Source of the DNA: a virus
IMG/VR virus record: IMGVR_UViG_3300024517_000107
Coordinates: 1 to 24,452 of that record
Direction: 5' to 3' (one strand)
Length of the DNA: 24,452 nt
Of this stretch, positions 1 to 24,452 are shown piece by piece. Each line of letters begins with the position of its first letter. Positions within the stretch are counted from its first letter, which is position 1. The position numbers and the translations under genes were made by a program. The notes under the pieces are model-generated. The model searched no databases and was not told the DNA's origin. It saw only the letters and a program-made list of their open reading frames with translations.

Positions 1-9
1 ACGCGCCTA

Positions 10-36
10 GCTGGGACGGGCCCCCCCCGTCCCAGC
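10..36 (+). other. Perfect GC-rich hairpin, terminator-like
   Basis: An 11-bp perfect stem (GCTGGGACGGG at 10-20 with CCCGTCCCAGC at 26-36) closes on a five-C loop. The following bases, ATTTCACTT, are not a proper U-tract, so it may be a weak terminator of a gene lying before the window or an mRNA-stabilising hairpin ahead of the small membrane peptide that starts at 60. The structure is plain in the sequence; the role is inferred. Confidence 0.55.
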
Positions 37-59
37 ATTTCACTTAAAGCGGAGTTCCT

Positions 60-131
60 ATGACACGCACGGAATTTTATGTTTGCCTGTTTGGTGTCTT
101 GATGATCGGGGTGTTTTTAGTGACCGGCTAA
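60..131 (+). CDS. 23-residue single-pass membrane peptide
   Basis: A short frame starts at ATG 60 behind a GGAG Shine-Dalgarno at 51-54 and ends at TAA 129-131. The predicted peptide has a polar start (MTRTEF) and then an almost unbroken hydrophobic run from about residue 6 to 22, enough for one membrane-spanning helix. I recognise no family. Similar micro-peptides occur in phage genomes as inner-membrane or lysis-related proteins, but nothing here proves that. The good ribosome site and hydrophobic pattern favour a real gene; the small size keeps confidence moderate. Confidence 0.45.
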   Translation: MTRTEFYVCLFGVLMIGVFLVTG

Positions 132-535
132 TGGCTACCGTACCGCCTCGCCCAGATCTGCTTTACAAGGGGTTGCTGTACCGCCGTACCACTATAGTAT
201 TAAATTTACAAAAACAAAAAAAATAAATTCCCGAGTTTATAGACGGTACAGACGGTACAGGTGGTACAGTCCACTAACCATATCGTATATAAGGATTTTT
301 CGGCTGTCGGAGCGTACCGCCTCGGAACACACGGAATCTCGGTCGCGGGACGCTGTCTCAGTTAATTGCAGTTTGTTTTTGGGGTTTCTGGGGGTATTGT
401 AACTAAGGTTAACTATTTCAGGACTTGTCTTATACCACTTACGGCACGTTGTTAAAGTGAGCCGGTGGTACACTGGCGGTACAGCTATGAAACTAAAGGA
501 AAAAGTGCTGTTAGAGTGCTTTTGGAGAGGGGCAT
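132..535 (+). promoter_or_regulatory. Gene-free region with GGTAC site array and A/T-rich block
   Basis: About 400 bases hold no convincing gene. Nine copies of a GRYGGTACR-like nonamer lie here on both strands, with GTAC cores at 140, 178, 186, 246, 255, 264, 314, 468 and 479; two more (573, 582) lie inside the next gene. Three copies at 246-267 are exact 9-bp tandem neighbours. An A/T-rich stretch, about 190-232, sits between copies. Repeated protein-binding sites beside an easily melted block next to the terminase small subunit gene would fit a replication origin, a pac/cos recognition region, or a repressor-controlled promoter. The sequence alone does not choose among these. Confidence 0.6.
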
Positions 536-1168
536 ATGGGTAACCAAAATAAGGTGTATAAAAAGACGGACGGTACAGGTGGTACACCTCAACGAGGGGG
601 GAATCGTGGCCCCAATCGCAAGCTGACTCGACGGCAAGAGAAGTTTGTGAAGGAGTTGGTTGCGAACGACGGACTAATCACCCTCAGAGAGGCAGCGATT
701 CGCGCGGGTTACCCTTCCGGAAGCGCGCATGCTAGGGCTTGGGAGTTAACCAACAGCAACATCAGCCCGCATGTCGTTGCGGAAATTGCGAGGTATCGAG
801 ACGAATTAGATGAGCAATACGGGGTCACATACAAACGACATATCAAAGACATGCACAGACTGAGAGAAATTTGTATCCAACAAGGTGCGCTTTCGGCAGC
901 CGTCCAGGCCGAGAAAAATCGGGGTTTGGCGGAGGGTTTGTATGTCAGCAAGTCAGAAATCAGGACCGGCAGCATCGACCAGATGAGCCGCGCCGACGTG
1001 GAGAAAGAACTTGAACGCATCAGATCGGGATTTGACCAGATTATTGACATCACTCCAGAAGCCGAAGAAATCGACGAACCAGATTCCGAGGACGGCGATG
1101 AAGAACCGGGAATCGGGGTTGTGGCGTCTGATAAGCGACGGGCTGCGAAAGTCGAAACGGAAAATTGA
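536..1168 (+). CDS. terS: Terminase small subunit
   Basis: This 210-residue protein looks like a phage terminase small subunit, which binds viral DNA at the packaging site and hands it to the large subunit. Residues 28-59 hold the typical opening, LTRRQEKFVKEL followed by LREAAIRAGYP, which forms the DNA-binding helix-turn-helix. A helical middle (about 80-165) suits ring oligomerisation, and the tail (175-193) is very acidic. The ATG at 536 has a purine-rich GAGAGGGG site upstream. Residues 12-17, DGTGGT, are encoded by two GGTACA sites that continue the upstream array, so the array reaches into the gene. The large subunit lies 3.4 kb downstream instead of adjacent. The last 71 bases overlap the next gene. 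Confidence 0.85.
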   Translation: MGNQNKVYKKTDGTGGTPQRGGNRGPNRKLTRRQEKFVKELVANDGLITLREAAIRAGYPSGSAHARAWELTNSNISPHVVAEIARYRDELDEQYGVTYKRHIKDMHRLREICIQQGALSAAVQAEKNRGLAEGLYVSKSEIRTGSIDQMSRADVEKELERIRSGFDQIIDITPEAEEIDEPDSEDGDEEPGIGVVASDKRRAAKVETEN

Positions 1169-1499
1169 AACCACACGCCTTGAAAGCTGGGCCCTTCCGG
1201 GAGTCCCTGATGTTCTTCTATGTAACGAGCGTGGCGTCATCAGCCTTTTGGAACTTAAGGTTATTAAAGGACGGTCTGGTAAGGTCAATTTGTCCGCCCA
1301 TCAGTGTGCTTGGCTGTCTCGGCATTCCAGGGGGCCTGCTTTTATTGTCGTTCGCGATGGCAGCTTGGATATTAGTGTGTTTCCTGCTTCCGCCGCTGTT
1401 GATCTGCGTATGGATGGCCTTGCAGCCGTGGAGGCTATGGCTGTTTTTGCGGAGCCGTATGATTGGGAATCTTTTTTCAGGTTGACCTCACCAACCTGA
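1098..1499 (+). CDS. VRR-NUC / PD-(D/E)XK-type nuclease
   Basis: The 133-residue product carries a compact PD-(D/E)XK nuclease core: GVPDVLL (Asp38), then LLELK (Glu52, Lys54), then LSAHQCAWL (Gln69). This spacing matches VRR-NUC or Holliday-resolvase-like enzymes that cut branched or damaged DNA. In phages such proteins may resolve replication intermediates before packaging, which would suit a gene coupled to the terminase small subunit. I chose ATG 1098 because GAGG lies seven bases before it; a longer frame from 1011 would add 29 residues without a comparable site. The start lies 71 bases inside the preceding gene, a long overlap that suggests translational coupling. Substrate specificity is unknown. 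Confidence 0.75.
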   Translation: MKNRESGLWRLISDGLRKSKRKIETTRLESWALPGVPDVLLCNERGVISLLELKVIKGRSGKVNLSAHQCAWLSRHSRGPAFIVVRDGSLDISVFPASAAVDLRMDGLAAVEAMAVFAEPYDWESFFRLTSPT

Positions 1500-6243: not shown

Positions 6244-7630
6244 CGAACCAAAACCGTCTCGTTTTTGGGTAGAGTACTTGCCCGTTAACGATGCATATGT
6301 GGCCTTGTTTGGCAATAAATTAGAAACAGCTTCGCTCATTCCTTTACGGCACCCCGACATACCGGCACTGGGGAAAAAGCGCAATGTTGCGACTCCTATG
6401 GAGCAGCAATATGGGCACGAAAGGTGGGAGCAGTTACCAAAAGAACAGACCCTTTTTTCATCGTTAGAAGAGATTGATTCCGTTTTGAAAAAAAGTGGCC
6501 TGTGGAGAAACCCAGAAAACAACGATATATCTACGATACAGGGTCCGACAAATCTCAGCACCCCGCCCACCCCCGACGAACCACGGCCCACGGACCAGTC
6601 TAATTTACCCGCCGCAATTGGCGCAGCCGCCGAAGCTTCCCGGCTTGCACTGCCTCCGGACGACAAACCAGGGCCCAAGGGAAAAGCATTCGGTAGCGGT
6701 ATTGGGAGTTTGATGTTCCGTAGGATGTTTCCTCTTATCCAAGCCGTACAGAAGGGCTACGAGCATCTTTTAACCGAAGATCAAAAGAGAGAAATGCGGG
6801 AGTTTCTTGCCCAGCCCACCCATGAATTTTTTGGCATGGACAAGTCGGGCCTTGAATCGTTCAAGGAAAAACTTGGTATCTTGGACGACGACATACCGGA
6901 GGAGACTTCTCTCAGCGTTATTGAAGGGCGCACGGAAAAACCCTTGGATGAGGTGTCTCAGAGCACTCTTAAACGGCGATTAAAAGCGGCGAAGAAGGAG
7001 CTTTCAGACCTGACCGGTATGACGGTCAAAAGGGACGTTACAAATCGGATGGAGGAACGAATACAAAATCTTGGCAAGGAAGATCCTCTTCTTGCAAGAC
7101 GACTGGATAGTCTTGTTACCCGAATTTACGATTTGAAGGAACGGATAAATCCTGACACTAGGTTTGGGTCAAGTTGGCGCACACACCCCGAGCAAGGTCC
7201 TCCCCCGGGCCCCACAGACTTGTATTTTCAAGGCATGGCTAGGCAACGGGAAGAGACTGAGGGAACTCTTTTCAAGGCCCTTGGTTCATTGCCATCCGAT
7301 TATCTTGGTGTGGAATCGGATTGGTTTCCCCAAGACCTTGGGCGGATATTGTCTAACCTTCCCCCGGACAGAATCCGTTCTATAGACGCGCTTCTCAAAC
7401 AACGCGACGGGAAAGGTTTGCTAGACCACACGTTCCCTCAGACTCGAACCGACACGATAATTAAGGTAGATCCCGATCTGCCTAGAACAGACCCAGAAAC
7501 GGTTCAAAACCGGGTACGAAACATTCTTGATCCAGGGGCCCAATCCTACATTCAACTTGTAGACGAAGAGCCTCCGGATACCACTATGGCTTATGGTGGT
7601 CTTGTGGTTAGGCCCTTGTACGACCCGTGA
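6236..7630 (+). CDS. Unassigned 464-residue phage protein
   Basis: A large hydrophilic protein between terL and portal that I do not recognise. It has a proline-rich, low-complexity linker at about residues 104-145, then a helical, charged centre (about 200-310) likely to form coiled coils (for example TLKRRLKAAKKELSDL), and ends MAYGGLVVRPLYDP. Short glycine-rich tails of this type recur in marine phage proteins encoded near portals. The start is ATG 6236 (GGGGAG upstream), eight bases inside the zinc-ribbon gene. No enzyme motif or membrane segment is visible. Its position between packaging genes and the portal suggests a virion or assembly role, but that is inference. Confidence 0.75.
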   Translation: MADEPKPSRFWVEYLPVNDAYVALFGNKLETASLIPLRHPDIPALGKKRNVATPMEQQYGHERWEQLPKEQTLFSSLEEIDSVLKKSGLWRNPENNDISTIQGPTNLSTPPTPDEPRPTDQSNLPAAIGAAAEASRLALPPDDKPGPKGKAFGSGIGSLMFRRMFPLIQAVQKGYEHLLTEDQKREMREFLAQPTHEFFGMDKSGLESFKEKLGILDDDIPEETSLSVIEGRTEKPLDEVSQSTLKRRLKAAKKELSDLTGMTVKRDVTNRMEERIQNLGKEDPLLARRLDSLVTRIYDLKERINPDTRFGSSWRTHPEQGPPPGPTDLYFQGMARQREETEGTLFKALGSLPSDYLGVESDWFPQDLGRILSNLPPDRIRSIDALLKQRDGKGLLDHTFPQTRTDTIIKVDPDLPRTDPETVQNRVRNILDPGAQSYIQLVDEEPPDTTMAYGGLVVRPLYDP

Positions 7631-7938: not shown

Positions 7939-8105
7939 TGGATGGTAAATCTTTAGACAGGACTATTTTACAGGAAACTTTAGATGGTGCTACTATGTCT
8001 ATTGTGATTGATCCGCGCGTCGAGGAGAGTCCTCCGGGCTTTATACGTGTGTTTGAAGACCTTAGATTAGTCCGGGATTATTTAACTTACCTACGGTCAA
8101 CCTAG
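7938..8105 (+). CDS. Small unknown protein, 55 residues
   Basis: A short acidic soluble protein starting at ATG 7938, whose A is the last base of the preceding TGA stop. Near the middle lies IDPRVEESPPGFIRVFEDL and the end LVRDYLTYLRS looks helical. No family is recognised. Translational coupling to the exported protein before it and the two-base gap to the next gene support it as a real operon member. Confidence 0.55.
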   Translation: MDGKSLDRTILQETLDGATMSIVIDPRVEESPPGFIRVFEDLRLVRDYLTYLRST

Positions 8106-8107
8106 CC

Positions 8108-9025
8108 ATGTCCAACTTAAAAGAACTTACCGTTAGCGAATATCTTCTAAATTTACGGAGGCCGAAGAAACAATCTGGGTTTAAACTTCCTTTTGTTCCT
8201 TATGAGATTGTCCCAGAGGATTCGACAGTACCGGACTCAGAGGGGCGTCAACAAGTGCTTGGGGTAGCGGCAAACCCGTTACATTCAACAAAGATTTTGC
8301 CCCAGTTTATTTTCCGGTCTTCGTCACCCGGGGTGGGAGCGGCACCGGATAGGGTGCAAGCGGAAACGAGTGTTGGAGGGGATAGGGCAGCGTTAAATGT
8401 AAGCGGGGAGCGCAGCATAAGTGGAGGCCCGTACGACATGAACTACATAAATGCCCGCGTTGGTCCTCTATCTTTTTTTGGAAGCGAAGGCACTGGGGAG
8501 GGACGAGAAAAAATACGCAGAGTTGGCGGTTCTGCAAGCCTTGGTCCCGTAGCTTTGTATGGTGAAAGAGAAGACACCACTCGGACGGTCATTCCGGAAC
8601 GGGACCGACGATTTTTCACAAACCCGAATGTAGACGTAAACCAGCGGGTGTTCGGGGTCCGTGGTTCAGTGCCCGTGGGCCCCGGTACGTTATTCGCTGA
8701 TCTTTCCCGTCGGTTTTCGGGTGTCAGAGAACCCCAGTTTTTTCGTCAACCCCAGCGCCCGCAGCACCGGGGTCCCAACGTGACGGAGTTGCGAGGCGAG
8801 TATGCGGGCAAGGTCGGCCCCGGAAGACTTGGTCTCGCAGGTCGTTATACGGACATTCGTGGAAGGGGAACGGACAAAGAGGCGGGTTTGTCTTATATGG
8901 TAGACGACCCATTTGGTCGCGGTGGACAGTTCACGGTCCAAGGAACCTATGCAAATCCATACGGTGCTCCGAGCGCAGCGCAGGGGACACTGCGGTGGAC
9001 GGTGCCTTTAGGAGGTCGCCGCTAA
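8108..9025 (+). CDS. Beta-strand-rich, barrel-like protein of unknown function
   Basis: A 305-residue basic protein without enzyme motifs. After about 90 disordered residues, its C-terminal two thirds repeat a pattern of alternating hydrophobic residues, turns and glycine-rich links: ARVGPLSFFGSEG, SLGPVALYGERED, SVPVGPGTLFADLS, KVGPGRLGLAGRYTD, QFTVQGTYANPYG and finally GTLRWTVPLGGRR. Such xVGPxxLxG strands resemble transmembrane beta-barrel hairpins in bacterial outer-membrane proteins, but there is no signal peptide. It could equally be a beta-rich virion protein. It lies between an exported protein gene and a basic small protein gene in the stretch leading to the portal. Its stop overlaps the next ATG (TAATG). 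Confidence 0.65.
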   Translation: MSNLKELTVSEYLLNLRRPKKQSGFKLPFVPYEIVPEDSTVPDSEGRQQVLGVAANPLHSTKILPQFIFRSSSPGVGAAPDRVQAETSVGGDRAALNVSGERSISGGPYDMNYINARVGPLSFFGSEGTGEGREKIRRVGGSASLGPVALYGEREDTTRTVIPERDRRFFTNPNVDVNQRVFGVRGSVPVGPGTLFADLSRRFSGVREPQFFRQPQRPQHRGPNVTELRGEYAGKVGPGRLGLAGRYTDIRGRGTDKEAGLSYMVDDPFGRGGQFTVQGTYANPYGAPSAAQGTLRWTVPLGGRR

Positions 9026-9177
9026 TGCCTTTGACAAAGAAGGGCGCAAAGATAAAGCGCAAGATGACGAAGACGTATGGTAAAGGTAAGGGTAATCAAG
9101 TCTTTTACGCCAGTATAAATGCAGGTAAGGTAAAAGGCGCGGAGAAACACAGAAAAGGTGGACGACGAGATGCCTAA
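9025..9177 (+). CDS. Very basic small phage protein
   Basis: A 50-residue, lysine- and glycine-rich protein starting MPLTKKGAKIKRKM and containing a VFYASINAGK segment. Small proteins of this pattern, with a basic start and an FYAS core, are widespread in tailed phages beside the portal gene, with no proven function; DNA binding would fit the charge. The start ATG overlaps the preceding stop as TAATG, and the end overlaps the next gene by eight bases. Confidence 0.65.
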   Translation: MPLTKKGAKIKRKMTKTYGKGKGNQVFYASINAGKVKGAEKHRKGGRRDA

Positions 9178-9823
9178 CGTAATGGGACGCGAATTTCCGT
9201 ACACGCCGCAAGGCATGGCGGCGGCTGAACAGTATAAGCAAGCCATGGGTATGCGCGACGGCGGCATGATGGGATTTCGTCCTATTGGGTACGCTAACGG
9301 AAGTCCGGGCGTCCCGGTAACAGATTCGATGGCCGTGATCCGAGAGTTGCAGGAACTGGAACTAACAGGAACCACACCGGATGTGATTGCGTTTATAGAA
9401 GGGAGGCAACGCGATCTAGCGAGGGCCGTGGAGGAATACCCGGAGTTCGCATCCTACCTTAACAGGATGCTGACACGCTTCGCTTCGGAATCGGCGGCTC
9501 CTCAACCCGCTGTCGAGAACAGGGGCGACGTACCATACACGGGGGTTCTTCCCGGAATGAGGATGCCTCCTGAAGGAGGAGATCAACTTTTAATCCAGCC
9601 TCCGCCGGAGACGGCTCCGCCTCAAGGGATGGCTCCGATGCCGGAGATGGCTCCGTATAACGACCTGCCAAACCAAGGGATGGCTCCGATGCCGGAGATG
9701 GCTCCGTATAACGACCTGCCAAACCAAGGGATGGCCCCGATGCCGGAGATAGCTTTTCCCCAAGGGATGGCTCCTCCCCAGCCATTCCGGGGCGGTGGGA
9801 TTGCCTCACTAAGGCGTTACTAG
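9170..9823 (+). CDS. Met/Pro-repeat protein upstream of portal
   Basis: A 217-residue protein that begins MPNVMGREFPYTPQGMAAAEQY, a start commonly seen in marine phage proteins next to the portal. The middle is helical (about 60-110). The C-terminal part, about residues 140-205, is a Pro/Met/Ala-rich repeat (QGMAPMPEMAPYNDLPN, 17 residues) present twice with partial copies, ending in FRGGGIASLRRY. I use ATG 9170; GTG 9158 in the same frame would add four residues. The low-complexity tail may be a flexible linker or scaffold-binding segment. Function unknown; virion or assembly role inferred from position one base before the portal gene. Confidence 0.7.
   Translation: MPNVMGREFPYTPQGMAAAEQYKQAMGMRDGGMMGFRPIGYANGSPGVPVTDSMAVIRELQELELTGTTPDVIAFIEGRQRDLARAVEEYPEFASYLNRMLTRFASESAAPQPAVENRGDVPYTGVLPGMRMPPEGGDQLLIQPPPETAPPQGMAPMPEMAPYNDLPNQGMAPMPEMAPYNDLPNQGMAPMPEIAFPQGMAPPQPFRGGGIASLRRY
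9623..9760 (+). repeat. 51-bp in-frame tandem repeat
   Basis: Near-identical 51-bp units begin at CAAGGGATGG 9623, 9674 and 9725, the third being incomplete; the same opening recurs at 9761. They encode the 17-residue Met/Pro repeat of the surrounding gene. The near identity at DNA level points to recent slippage or unequal recombination. Confidence 0.9.
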
Positions 9824-12256
9824 ATGGCTAGGAACCCGCTACCCCGCAGTAATTTTGGAACGGCCTCTCTTATAGAAAGGCGCAACGAGATACCGCCTGT
9901 GGAACTGGAAGAAGGCTCTGACGCAGAGGTGTTTCTTGACGATGCAAGCATCATCGAAGCGCCCGGTTTAAATATAGAACTGGAAGATGACGGGGGAGTT
10001 GTTGTCGATTTTGATCCCCGTATGGATCAGGTTTCAAATGCAGGGTTTTATGACAACCTTGCAGAGGAAGTGGACACCGGACTCTTGTCCCGGATAGCTT
10101 CGGACCTGTTGGATCAGTACGAGGCTAACAAGGATGGTCGTAAGGATTGGGAGGACACTTACCGAACCGGTTTAGAACTTCTTGGTTTTAAATACGAGGA
10201 GCGTTCGGAACCTTTCCGGGGTGCAACAGGAGTGACGCACCCTCTTCTTGCAGAAGCCGTAACCCAGTTTCAGGCGCAGGCGTTTGGAGAGCTTTTACCA
10301 GCAGGGGGACCTGTAAACACACAGATTTTAGGCGAGTCTTCTCCTGACATAGAGGCCCAATCGGATCGTGTACGCAACTTTATGAATTATCAAATCACGT
10401 GTGTTATGAAGGAATACACACCTGAATTTGACCAAATGTTGTTTTACCTACCGTTGGCTGGTTCCACGTTCAAAAAGGTGTATTACGATGATTTCCTGGG
10501 TCGCGCTGTCAGCAAGTTTGTTCCTGCGGAACAACTGATCGTCCCGTATACCGCGACGGATTTGGAAACAGCCGAGAATGTAACACATGTTATCCAGATT
10601 TCGGAGAACGAGCTTCGGAAGAAACAAGTAGCCGGTTTTTATTCCGATATTAAAGTGTCCGCATCGCAGTCGGACCCGTCCGAGGTCCGTGAGGAGATGG
10701 ACGAGATAAGTGGAGTAGAGCCCAGCCGTCTGGATACCGAAGTTACGTTACTTGAATGTCATGTAGATCTGGATTTGGAAGGATTTGAAGATTCCGATCC
10801 CAGCGGCGAACCCACGGGTATCAAACTTCCCTACGTTGTAACTGTGTCAGAGGATAATGGGAAGGTTCTAAGCATTCGTCGGAACTACAAGGAGGGAGAT
10901 CAGAACCGTAAGAAAAACCAGTACTTTGTTCATTTCAAATTCCTTCCCGGGTTTGGTTTTTACGGCTTAGGTTTAATTCACATGATTGGTGGGTTAAGCC
11001 GAACGGCTACTGCTGCGTTACGCCAGCTTATTGATGCTGGGACTTTGGCTAATTTACCCGCAGGTTTCAAGACTCGCGGTCTTCGTATCCGGAATGATGA
11101 CGAACCGCTGTCCCCGGGCGAGTTCCGGGACGTGGATTCTCCCGGAGGTGCTATCCGGGATTCATTGATGCTCCTTCCGTACAAGGGAGCGGATCAGACT
11201 CTGTTTCAGCTAATGGGGTTCTGTGTGGAGGCTGGTCAGCGGTTCGCTGCGGTGTCTAATTTACAGGTTGGAGACGGGAACCAGCAGGCTGCGGTTGGAA
11301 CCACCATTGCAATGCTGGAGCAGGGTGCAAAAGTAATGTCGGCCATACATAAACGGCTGCATTACGCTCAGAAAGACGAGTTTGATCTTCTTGCAAAGGT
11401 GTTCGGGGAATCCCTTCCACCGGAGTACCCTTACAACGTTGTTGGTGCGGAACGGGTTATAAAATCGGAGGATTTTGATGATAGGATTGACATTATTCCA
11501 GTTTCCGATCCCAACATATTTTCTATGTCGCAAAGGGTTGCTATGGCGCAGACTGAGTTACAGTTGGCGCAAGCGGCTCCGGACTTGCATAACATGTACG
11601 AAGCGTTTCGTAGGATGTATAAGGCGCTTGGGGTCAAAGACGTTGATTCTATTCTCAAGGTCGTAGATCAGGAAGAAGCTGTTCCTAAAGATCCCGCAGT
11701 AGAGAATTCGGAAGCACTTGAGAACATTGAACTAGAGGCGTTCCAAGGACAGAATCACAAGGCCCACATAATGGCTCATCTAGTTTTCGGGTCTTCTCCT
11801 ATGGTTGGACAGCTACCTTCGGTAGCAATGTCCTTGCAAAAGCATGTCATGGAGCATGTTTCTATAGGCTCTAAGGAACAGGTTTCATCACAGATGATGC
11901 AACAGCTTCAGGGACAAGAGCCGAGCGAGGAGCAGGTTTTACAGATAGAATCCATGGTGGCGGAACAGATAGCGCAAGGGATGCAGGAGGTCAAAGCTCT
12001 AAGTCTTCAAATAAGCGGTCAGTCCGAACAGCAACAAGATCCTTTGATTGCCTTGAAAGAGCAGGACTTACAGCTTCGGGCAAAACGGGATGAGGCCGAG
12101 CATCAGATAGATCAGGCACGACTTTCTCTGGATCAACAGAAAGCACAGTCCACGGCAGATCTTGGGGCGCAAAGAATACAGTCTCAGGAAGAAATAGTGG
12201 CGGCTCGTATACAGGCGGCACGCGAACGCGAGTTGATGAAACAAACTGGTCAATAG
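9824..12256 (+). CDS. Portal protein (P22-like type)
   Basis: An 810-residue protein with the order and motifs of large podovirus portal proteins. After an acidic start, the core opens with KDGRKDWEDTYRTGLELLG and FRGATGVTHPLLAEAVTQFQAQ (about residues 128-157), the typical wing-domain region of P22/SU10-type portals. A central stretch with FLPGFGFYGLGLIHMIGG is also typical. The C-terminus from about 690 is glutamine-rich and probably coiled coil, corresponding to the barrel region. Twelve copies would form the ring at one capsid vertex through which terminase pumps DNA and to which adaptors bind. Long size (P22 portal is 725 residues) and position after terL and before scaffold and capsid support the call. 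Confidence 0.88.
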   Translation: MARNPLPRSNFGTASLIERRNEIPPVELEEGSDAEVFLDDASIIEAPGLNIELEDDGGVVVDFDPRMDQVSNAGFYDNLAEEVDTGLLSRIASDLLDQYEANKDGRKDWEDTYRTGLELLGFKYEERSEPFRGATGVTHPLLAEAVTQFQAQAFGELLPAGGPVNTQILGESSPDIEAQSDRVRNFMNYQITCVMKEYTPEFDQMLFYLPLAGSTFKKVYYDDFLGRAVSKFVPAEQLIVPYTATDLETAENVTHVIQISENELRKKQVAGFYSDIKVSASQSDPSEVREEMDEISGVEPSRLDTEVTLLECHVDLDLEGFEDSDPSGEPTGIKLPYVVTVSEDNGKVLSIRRNYKEGDQNRKKNQYFVHFKFLPGFGFYGLGLIHMIGGLSRTATAALRQLIDAGTLANLPAGFKTRGLRIRNDDEPLSPGEFRDVDSPGGAIRDSLMLLPYKGADQTLFQLMGFCVEAGQRFAAVSNLQVGDGNQQAAVGTTIAMLEQGAKVMSAIHKRLHYAQKDEFDLLAKVFGESLPPEYPYNVVGAERVIKSEDFDDRIDIIPVSDPNIFSMSQRVAMAQTELQLAQAAPDLHNMYEAFRRMYKALGVKDVDSILKVVDQEEAVPKDPAVENSEALENIELEAFQGQNHKAHIMAHLVFGSSPMVGQLPSVAMSLQKHVMEHVSIGSKEQVSSQMMQQLQGQEPSEEQVLQIESMVAEQIAQGMQEVKALSLQISGQSEQQQDPLIALKEQDLQLRAKRDEAEHQIDQARLSLDQQKAQSTADLGAQRIQSQEEIVAARIQAARERELMKQTGQ

Positions 12257-23986: not shown

Positions 23987-24452
23987 ATGGCGTTTACTGA
24001 TTTTGATTTCAGTGATGTTGGTGTTGTCGGGTTATTAAGACCTGTCGCCAGAACCTATGCAATATCGAGTGGCGGTGGAGTTGATGTCACCGTTACGGGC
24101 GTTTCCGGGACGGGGTCTATTGGCACCGTCACGGTTGGCGAAGGTGTTGGTGGCGAAGGTTGGGGACGAGGCACCTGGGGTGAAGGTGCTTGGGGTGAAG
24201 GCATTGGTGTTACTGTTACTGTCTCGGGCGTTTCCGGGACGGGATCTATTGGCACCGTCACGGTTGGAGAGGGAGTTGGGGTTACCGTCACGGGCGTTTC
24301 CGGGACGGGATCTATTGGCACCGTCACTGTTGGCGAAGGTGTTGGTGTCACCGTCACGGGCGTTTCCGGGACGGGTGCTGCGGGCACCGTCACGGTTGCC
24401 GGTGGAAGCATTGTCACCGTCACGGGCGTTTCCGGGACGGGATCTATTGGCA
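23987..24452 (+). CDS. Repeat-rich tail fibre protein, cut by window end
   Basis: A frame open from ATG 23987 to the window end (155 codons seen). After MAFTDFDFSDVGVVGLL come repeats of a 22-residue unit, VSGTGSIGTVTVGEGVGVTVTG, in which Val and Thr alternate as in beta-strands; two short Gly/Trp/Glu insertions interrupt it (GEGWGRGTWGEGAWGEG). This resembles the collagen-like or beta-repeat shafts of phage tail fibres. A 13-bp tandem duplication of the start (23974-23999) puts an extra ATG upstream in another frame that ends after eight codons, so 23987 is the functional start. The protein is incomplete, so total length and tip are unknown. Confidence 0.75.
   Translation, partial: MAFTDFDFSDVGVVGLLRPVARTYAISSGGGVDVTVTGVSGTGSIGTVTVGEGVGGEGWGRGTWGEGAWGEGIGVTVTVSGVSGTGSIGTVTVGEGVGVTVTGVSGTGSIGTVTVGEGVGVTVTGVSGTGAAGTVTVAGGSIVTVTGVSGTGSIG
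24101..24452 (+). repeat. 66-bp in-frame tandem repeat in fibre gene
   Basis: The motif GTTTCCGGGACGG recurs at 24101, 24230, 24296, 24362 and 24428; the last four are exactly 66 bp apart, giving a 22-residue protein repeat. The first interval is 129 bp because of a short Gly/Trp-rich insertion. The array runs off the window end. Confidence 0.92.

Follow-up and report, generated by a model that had tools for sequence, protein, structure and literature searches.

A 9-bp word occurs about 13 times near the left end of a marine viral contig, in sets that flank an A/T-rich block, and we propose that this array is probably an iteron-type replication origin. The contig is the IMG/VR record IMGVR_UViG_3300024517_000107, and the window refers throughout to the whole stretch analysed, 24,452 bp. 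The array runs into terS, the gene for the terminase small subunit, which at first sight invites a different explanation. The comparison with relatives that the initial annotation of this DNA had proposed shows the array conserved in over 50 contigs from related marine phages, and a core of the same layout is found beside primase genes in phages of quite different hosts.

The initial annotation had listed eleven GTAC cores and assigned all of them to a single nonamer, GRYGGTACR. On recount every position is exact, as is the division into four inverted and seven direct copies. Ten of the cores match the nonamer exactly; the shared word does not extend in full to the copy at 185-193 (AGTGGTACG), which has one mismatch, an A at its first base. 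The excess over chance is also real, with eleven cores where we calculate about 1.4 per 459 bp (about two in the earlier estimate), and the window as a whole contains 74 GTAC in its 24,452 bp. The window has 12 exact matches to GRYGGTACR; 100 shuffles that preserved dinucleotides averaged 1.2 and never gave as many. Ten exact nonamers are packed into 448 bp, and the maximum in any 450-bp stretch of 200 Markov-1 simulated windows was two. Two weaker copies had been overlooked, CGCGGGACG at 344-352 and the inverted AGTGGTATA at 431-439, and both of these slots are filled in relatives. The nine-base tandem spacing described earlier is present at 242/251/260 and again at 569/578, so that, as in iteron origins, there are multiple direct copies of a short word with regular spacing. 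The two copies inside terS do encode DGTGGT (codons GAC GGT ACA GGT GGT ACA), and the stretch at 190-232 that had been called A/T-rich is 81% A+T. The complete set of features is given in Table 1.

Table 1. Sites of the array and neighbouring features, in window coordinates.
Feature	Coordinates	Strand	Sequence	Remarks
Site S1	139..147	-	GGCGGTACG	Exact match; slot shared with L013 and L016
Site S2, left set	177..185	-	GGCGGTACA	Slot conserved
Site S3	185..193	-	AGTGGTACG	8 bp from S2; slot conserved
A/T-rich block	194..241			83% A+T; TATAG-type box at start; separates the two site sets
Site S4, first copy of tandem triple	242..250	+	GACGGTACA	Most relatives have a 9-bp-spaced triple
Site S5	251..259	+	GACGGTACA	Exact match
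Site S6	260..268	+	GGTGGTACA	Exact match
TATATAAGG element	286..294	+	TATATAAGG	Conserved across the alignment of relatives
Site S7, first copy of inverted pair	313..321	-	GGCGGTACG	
Site S8, lone direct copy	344..352	+	CGCGGGACG	GGGAC spelling; slot conserved
Weak site S9	431..439	-	AGTGGTATA	GGGAC-type relatives read TATGGGAT
Site S10	464..472	+	GGTGGTACA	Exact match
Site S11	475..483	+	GGCGGTACA	11 bp from S10
terS, terminase small subunit (210 aa)	536..1168	+		PHROG 51, E=1.7e-9; Terminase_2 0.00084, under the cut-off
Site S12, within terS	569..577	+	GACGGTACA	Codons D-G-T
Site S13, within terS	578..586	+	GGTGGTACA	Codons G-G-T; GGT to GGG in relatives is synonymous
VRR-NUC-like nuclease gene	1011..1499	+		phrog_2165, 1.6e-10; overlaps terS; start codon uncertain

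The block between the two site sets is a candidate DNA-unwinding element. Like the unwinding region of an iteron origin it adjoins the sites; both the block and its TATAG-type box are kept in the alignment of relatives, with related boxes in L032 and L123. The TATATAAGG element is possibly a -10-like or easily melted sequence, and a search for a sigma-70-like promoter found none in window positions 1-1200. Other repeats occur at both ends of the window. At positions 10-36 there is a perfect inverted repeat with 11-bp arms (GCTGGGACGGG/CCCGTCCCAGC), which contains GGGAC words and resembles a terminator except that its T run is incomplete, and positions 24,050-24,452, at the contig end, hold coding tandem repeats of GTVTVTGVSGTGS-like units. 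A second repeat, CCACGGCCCACGG-like, precedes the array in many loci (L046 at about 11,026-11,700, L060 and L063 among them) and, in DSL-LC04, terL.

The comparison rests on about 55 loci that two protein scans of viral contigs made available. In nearly all of them the array is at the same place with near-fixed slots: S2 and S3 are 8 bp apart, S3 and S4 about 56-57 bp, S4, S5 and S6 mostly 9 and 9 bp, and S10 and S11 11 bp. The partner of S7, 12 bp further on, is missing from the window and kept in four relatives (L060, L088, L101 and L104). What varies is the word. The window and nine other loci use GRYGGTACA and most loci use GRYGGGACA, with rarer spellings in L064 and L069 (GRYGATAGR), 023Pt_psg01 (TGGCACA), L032 (TGTTACA) and L123 (GTGTAACT, of the TGTAACA type). 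Nearly all copies within one array switch word together. A minority base occurs at 17 of 254 sites, where independent choice would give 79 +/- 5 (39 arrays with at least five sites, kinship ignored), and mixed arrays are few (L017, L059, L094). The switch reaches into the coding sequence, where a T-to-G swap turns GGT GGT ACA into GGT GGG ACA; both read Gly-Gly-Thr, and the selection pressure therefore acts on the DNA and not on the protein.

Some relatives carry repeats of other kinds. Synechococcus phage MinM2 (L134) has nine GTCATAC words in two groups at 6,960-7,365, with a CCTATAGGG box, after a gene that by eye is TerS-like; this is possibly another array type. HTVC027P (L045) has intergenic AAGCTTG and CTTGTGGC repeats at 7,990-8,110 and 8,878-9,220 that are unlike the array, and a GGTGATAGG-type contig, L129, starts with nine CCTTGCC repeats (39-200) within a predicted reading frame.

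The gene content around the array places it at a module border. In the window, terS is followed by the overlapping VRR-NUC-like gene, terL, the portal gene and the capsid genes. The VRR-NUC name is putative; a homologue of this reading frame comes after terS in 55 of the 55 loci compared. The large terminase is 61-65% identical to those of 023Pt_psg01, Pelagibacter phage HTVC027P and DSL-LC04. Since the 24-kb window record holds no replication gene, we infer its replication cassette from relatives. In the longer of these the order is a HepA-like helicase, a protein of about 195 aa, an annealase-like protein (Pam3 gp34), an archaeo-eukaryotic-type (AEP) primase, a UvrD-like helicase, a family-A DNA polymerase, accessory genes, the array and terS, and the array thus marks the border between the replication and late modules. 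In the clade to which the window belongs, about 9-11 kb separate the array from the primase gene and terS adjoins the array, with two of the sites in the variable N-terminal segment of terS. The terS gene of 023Pt_psg01 and of HTVC027P is encoded on the opposite strand, several hundred bases from the repeats.

The variable region before the array encodes differing DNA-binding regulators in relatives, GcrA-like and several Xre/HTH (e.g. L047 3178-3576, L077 3592-3783, L059 1668-2141 and L129 616-1299). In 16 loci a conserved protein of about 250 aa (KNRYCGPSVISALT...HWQLVSGR) is encoded just before the array (e.g. L063 5904-6659); it is cysteine-peptidase-like by eye, with no match to a Pfam or PHROG family.

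A good illustration of what the array belongs to comes from distant phages. The core layout consists of three direct copies 8-9 bp apart, a gap, two inverted copies 12 bp apart, a second gap and one direct copy. It immediately precedes the AEP primase gene in PMBT28, PSA28 and Kokobel2 (phages of Salmonella, Pseudomonas and Providencia), with weaker forms at the same place in Bhz9 and JeffCo, and the primases of these five phages share only 28-31% identity with the marine ones. A geometric search scored PMBT28 at 35/35, Kokobel2 and PSA28 at 34/35, and six marine or aquatic loci (L178, L167, L175, L218, L123 and L032) at 33-35/35, against at most 26 for shuffles. The gaps are 41-45 or 51-52 bp long, a difference of about one helical turn, which is consistent with the expectation for a phased complex. 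Under this strict geometry the window scores 27/35, because its second inverted copy is lost and its single copy displaced, and its membership of the core rests on slot alignment with the full-core relatives L060 (31/35) and L104 (30/35). In PMBT28 the large terminase gene is at record position 1-1470 and the array near 20.9 kb; Kokobel2 has terL at 18.4 kb, a primase-side array at 39.2 kb and a second array at 14.2 kb, about 4 kb before terL. The array is therefore linked to replication genes, through the primase-side core and through the AEP primase/PolA cassette of the window's relatives. Because the same core sits upstream of distant AEP primase genes, we conclude that the array tracks this cassette rather than terS. 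ct3Et533, whose primase is 40% identical, yielded no such array and DSL-LC04 no clear one; a scan for tandem-plus-inverted words matched 6 of 51 primase-bearing contigs, many of which end before the expected position. PMBT28 and PSA28 (L140, L141) also encode adenylosuccinate synthetase, a gene found as well in phages with 2-aminoadenine DNA.

The array can also be approached without reference to any gene. Viral contigs were searched for TGTAAC words alone in a 3-2 geometry, and 64 contigs matched. This terS family is present in 52 of them, nearly always within a few hundred bases, and 16 extend to PolA; among 80 control contigs one has terS and none has the replication genes searched for. Seven of the 12 matches without this terS family have a primase-type gene near the array. 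In L246 and L255 a DUF927 primase-type gene with a CHC2 zinc finger (tested in L246) has the array at its 3' end, in L228 and its near-copies L234, L242, L251 and L284 it is beside a DUF3854/DUF5906 protein, and in L264 the neighbour is, by eye, a CHC2-like primase. Such arrays therefore occur beside differing primase-type proteins. The match in L243 lies inside coding sequence and may be a chance event. A scan for TGGTAC triples probably returned mostly a codon-periodic artefact (Trp-Tyr repeats) and was kept as a control set only.

How might such an origin work? We envisage that a phage replication protein would bind the copies cooperatively as a phased complex, that the bound complex would melt the A/T block, and that helicase and primase would then be loaded, letting the phage family-A polymerase start. 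We propose that copies switch in concert because the initiator must recognise all of them, so that any shift in its specificity would favour one and the same substitution at every copy. GC skew was of no help as an origin signal, as in 023Pt_psg01 it tracks the gene strand.

The initial annotation had named both an iteron origin and a packaging recognition site. The former has gained from the conserved array, its two sets and the core upstream of distant primase genes; the latter has lost ground. For the array to be a pac site, TerS would bind it and the terminase would cut nearby, as at P1 pac or SPP1 pacL/pacR, which we consider unlikely, with only a small share of our belief. Its appeal is plain, as the array lies beside terS in nearly all relatives as well as in 52 of the 64 blind matches, and the copies at 569-586 lie inside terS, where they are preserved through synonymous changes. 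However, the array does not move with the terminase genes between phages: in PMBT28 and Kokobel2 the core is beside the primase, with the gene annotated as large terminase about 20 kb away, and in 023Pt_psg01 and HTVC027P terS lies on the other strand. Neither does the word covary with the DNA-binding domain of TerS. The recognition helix SAHTRAYE is identical in L056 (GGGAC) and L123 (GTGTAAC), and in TerS the arm LTRGPNRKLTRRQ is common to L064 (GGTGATAGG) and L055 (GGGAC), whose helices are almost identical as well. With the HTH unchanged between word types we rejected TerS as the reader of the words, although in mycobacteriophages repressors whose HTH is identical may recognise distinct motifs (PMC6550527). 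A residue in the N-terminal arm of TerS does associate partially with the word (8 of the 10 GGTAC phages have Asn there and none of the 37 GGGAC phages does), but it is encoded about 20 nt from the coding sites and linkage can therefore explain this. Contig 5' ends are in excess 500-750 bp upstream of terS (9 against 3.4 expected, in one of 13 bins), a weak proxy for packaging ends that the variable region could account for. Under the origin reading, the extension of the array into terS would be a consequence of the location of the origin at the module border and not of packaging. Repeats at terS should not be assumed to be packaging sites without caution.

Transcriptional control offers another explanation, which we hold to be rather doubtful: the array would be an operator, and a phage regulator bound to it would control promoters of two kinds, those of the replication operon in phages like Kokobel2 and, in the clade of the window, those of the late operon led by terS. 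A regulator acting upstream of both operons could produce the same pattern, and Kokobel2 has two arrays. The array is intergenic; terS and the late genes that run rightward lie downstream of it, and elements of the TATAG and TATATAAGG kinds adjoin the site sets. HTH or GcrA-like genes are near it in several relatives, and concerted change of words between phages is known for repressors and stoperators (PMC6550527). Against this, the HTH genes vary by phage and no common one was found, the 1-1200 region lacks a sigma-70-like promoter, the convergent terS of 023Pt_psg01 leaves its array without a directly facing late operon, and the primase-type gene of L246 and L255 has the array at its 3' end. 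A paired structure, in which direct copies would base-pair with inverted ones in RNA or single-stranded DNA and would change in concert so as to stay paired, is very improbable. The two kinds of copy in each phage are complementary by construction, but direct copies outnumber inverted ones and those without a partner change too; furthermore, the sets are unequally spaced (8 versus 9 bp) and so cannot pair in register.

If the array is an origin, as we favour, some protein must read its words. The most likely candidate is the AEP primase, through a predicted C-terminal winged-helix domain. The last 134 residues of the window-type primase are predicted to fold as H-H-E-E-H-H-E-E, a winged helix, with pLDDT mostly 70-89 in the folded part. 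The best of the matches listed by a fold search with this region are TcpK, an oriT-binding protein, in complex with oriT, and PadR regulators, with Z up to 7.8. The top match, to TcpK at Z 7.8, is suggestive only, and values in this range may reflect a common arrangement alone; the P4 origin-binding domain is absent among the matches listed, and a PDB sequence search with the primase C-terminus gave no significant match. The predicted recognition helix reads SNK in marine phages with YGG words and SHK or PYK in phages with YGT words, a contrast that coincides with two clades. Residues of the predicted wing weakly follow the variable base, with V, P and P at a T and T, T, S, S and A at a G or an A, a difference short of significance (Fisher about 0.07 on a hand calculation). 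A gene-by-gene search near the array for a protein that clusters by word type gave none that was convincing, and an RHH-like 53-aa protein (KWKSVVVPI) was rejected as the reader because its strand is, by eye, constant across word types.

These data raise the possibility, which we put forward tentatively and think less probable than its converse, that the AEP primase is itself the origin-reading initiator. Its C-terminal winged helix would read the 9-bp word in a phased 3-2-1 array, with a specificity that would have changed repeatedly and in all copies together, in pelagiphage-like phages and in phages of Salmonella, Pseudomonas and Providencia. If true, one phage family would contain many origin types that are incompatible with one another. 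The word switches seen in nature are a ready test of how an initiator and all of its sites can change specificity jointly, and with a recognisable, conserved array of several word types the sequence by itself would suffice to locate origins. Pelagiphages of the HTVC023P type occur widely in the ocean (PMC9599517), and a term search of two papers on them found no description of an origin.

Several known systems resemble the array in part. Short sites at or inside a packaging gene are known from P1, where seven hexamers lie inside pacA (PMC10028697), and from SPP1 pac (PMC7617512), but here the array accompanies replication genes in distant relatives. The stoperators of cluster A mycobacteriophages are likewise short words whose consensus varies by phage (PMC6550527). 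They are scattered genome-wide, in contrast with the one place occupied here; the 28-kb and 20-kb relatives G001 and G002 each have a single cluster, and scattered stoperators were rejected on this ground. In SCCmec, the C-terminal domain of Cch2 binds direct-repeat iterons beside replication genes (PMC7581432), but these are three 5-nt iterons and the initiator is a helicase. The AEP enzyme of NrS-1, NrSPol, initiates synthesis at TTTGGTTA, GTGG or GTGA (PMC8718748). It shares sequence-specific initiation with our proposal, and several words here include GTGG or GTGA; it recognises a single-stranded template, however, and the comparison made here is of words.

P4 provides a likeness both in its short repeats and in the winged helix of its primase protein. 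The iterons of P4 ori and crr are spelled GGTGAACA; GGTGNNACA-type words here look similar, and the window word is GRYGGTACA. P4 alpha reads the origin repeats by a winged helix, and pRN1 has an AEP replication protein with a C-terminal winged helix (PMC4234260). Alpha differs in being a TOPRIM primase with its own helicase, whereas here the primase is of the AEP type and the helicases are separate. In PICIs, two iteron sets surround an AT-rich region, and pri-rep-ori supports plasmid replication (PMC6092414). The window has the same plan, with S1-S3 and S4-S6 around the block at 194-241. The PICI origin is 3' of rep and is served by Pri-Rep proteins, whereas the relatives of the window are phages with a stand-alone AEP primase, and their array, instead of lying immediately 3' of the rep gene of a pri-rep module, adjoins terS about 9-11 kb from the primase in the window clade, has more sites and runs its copies into terS.
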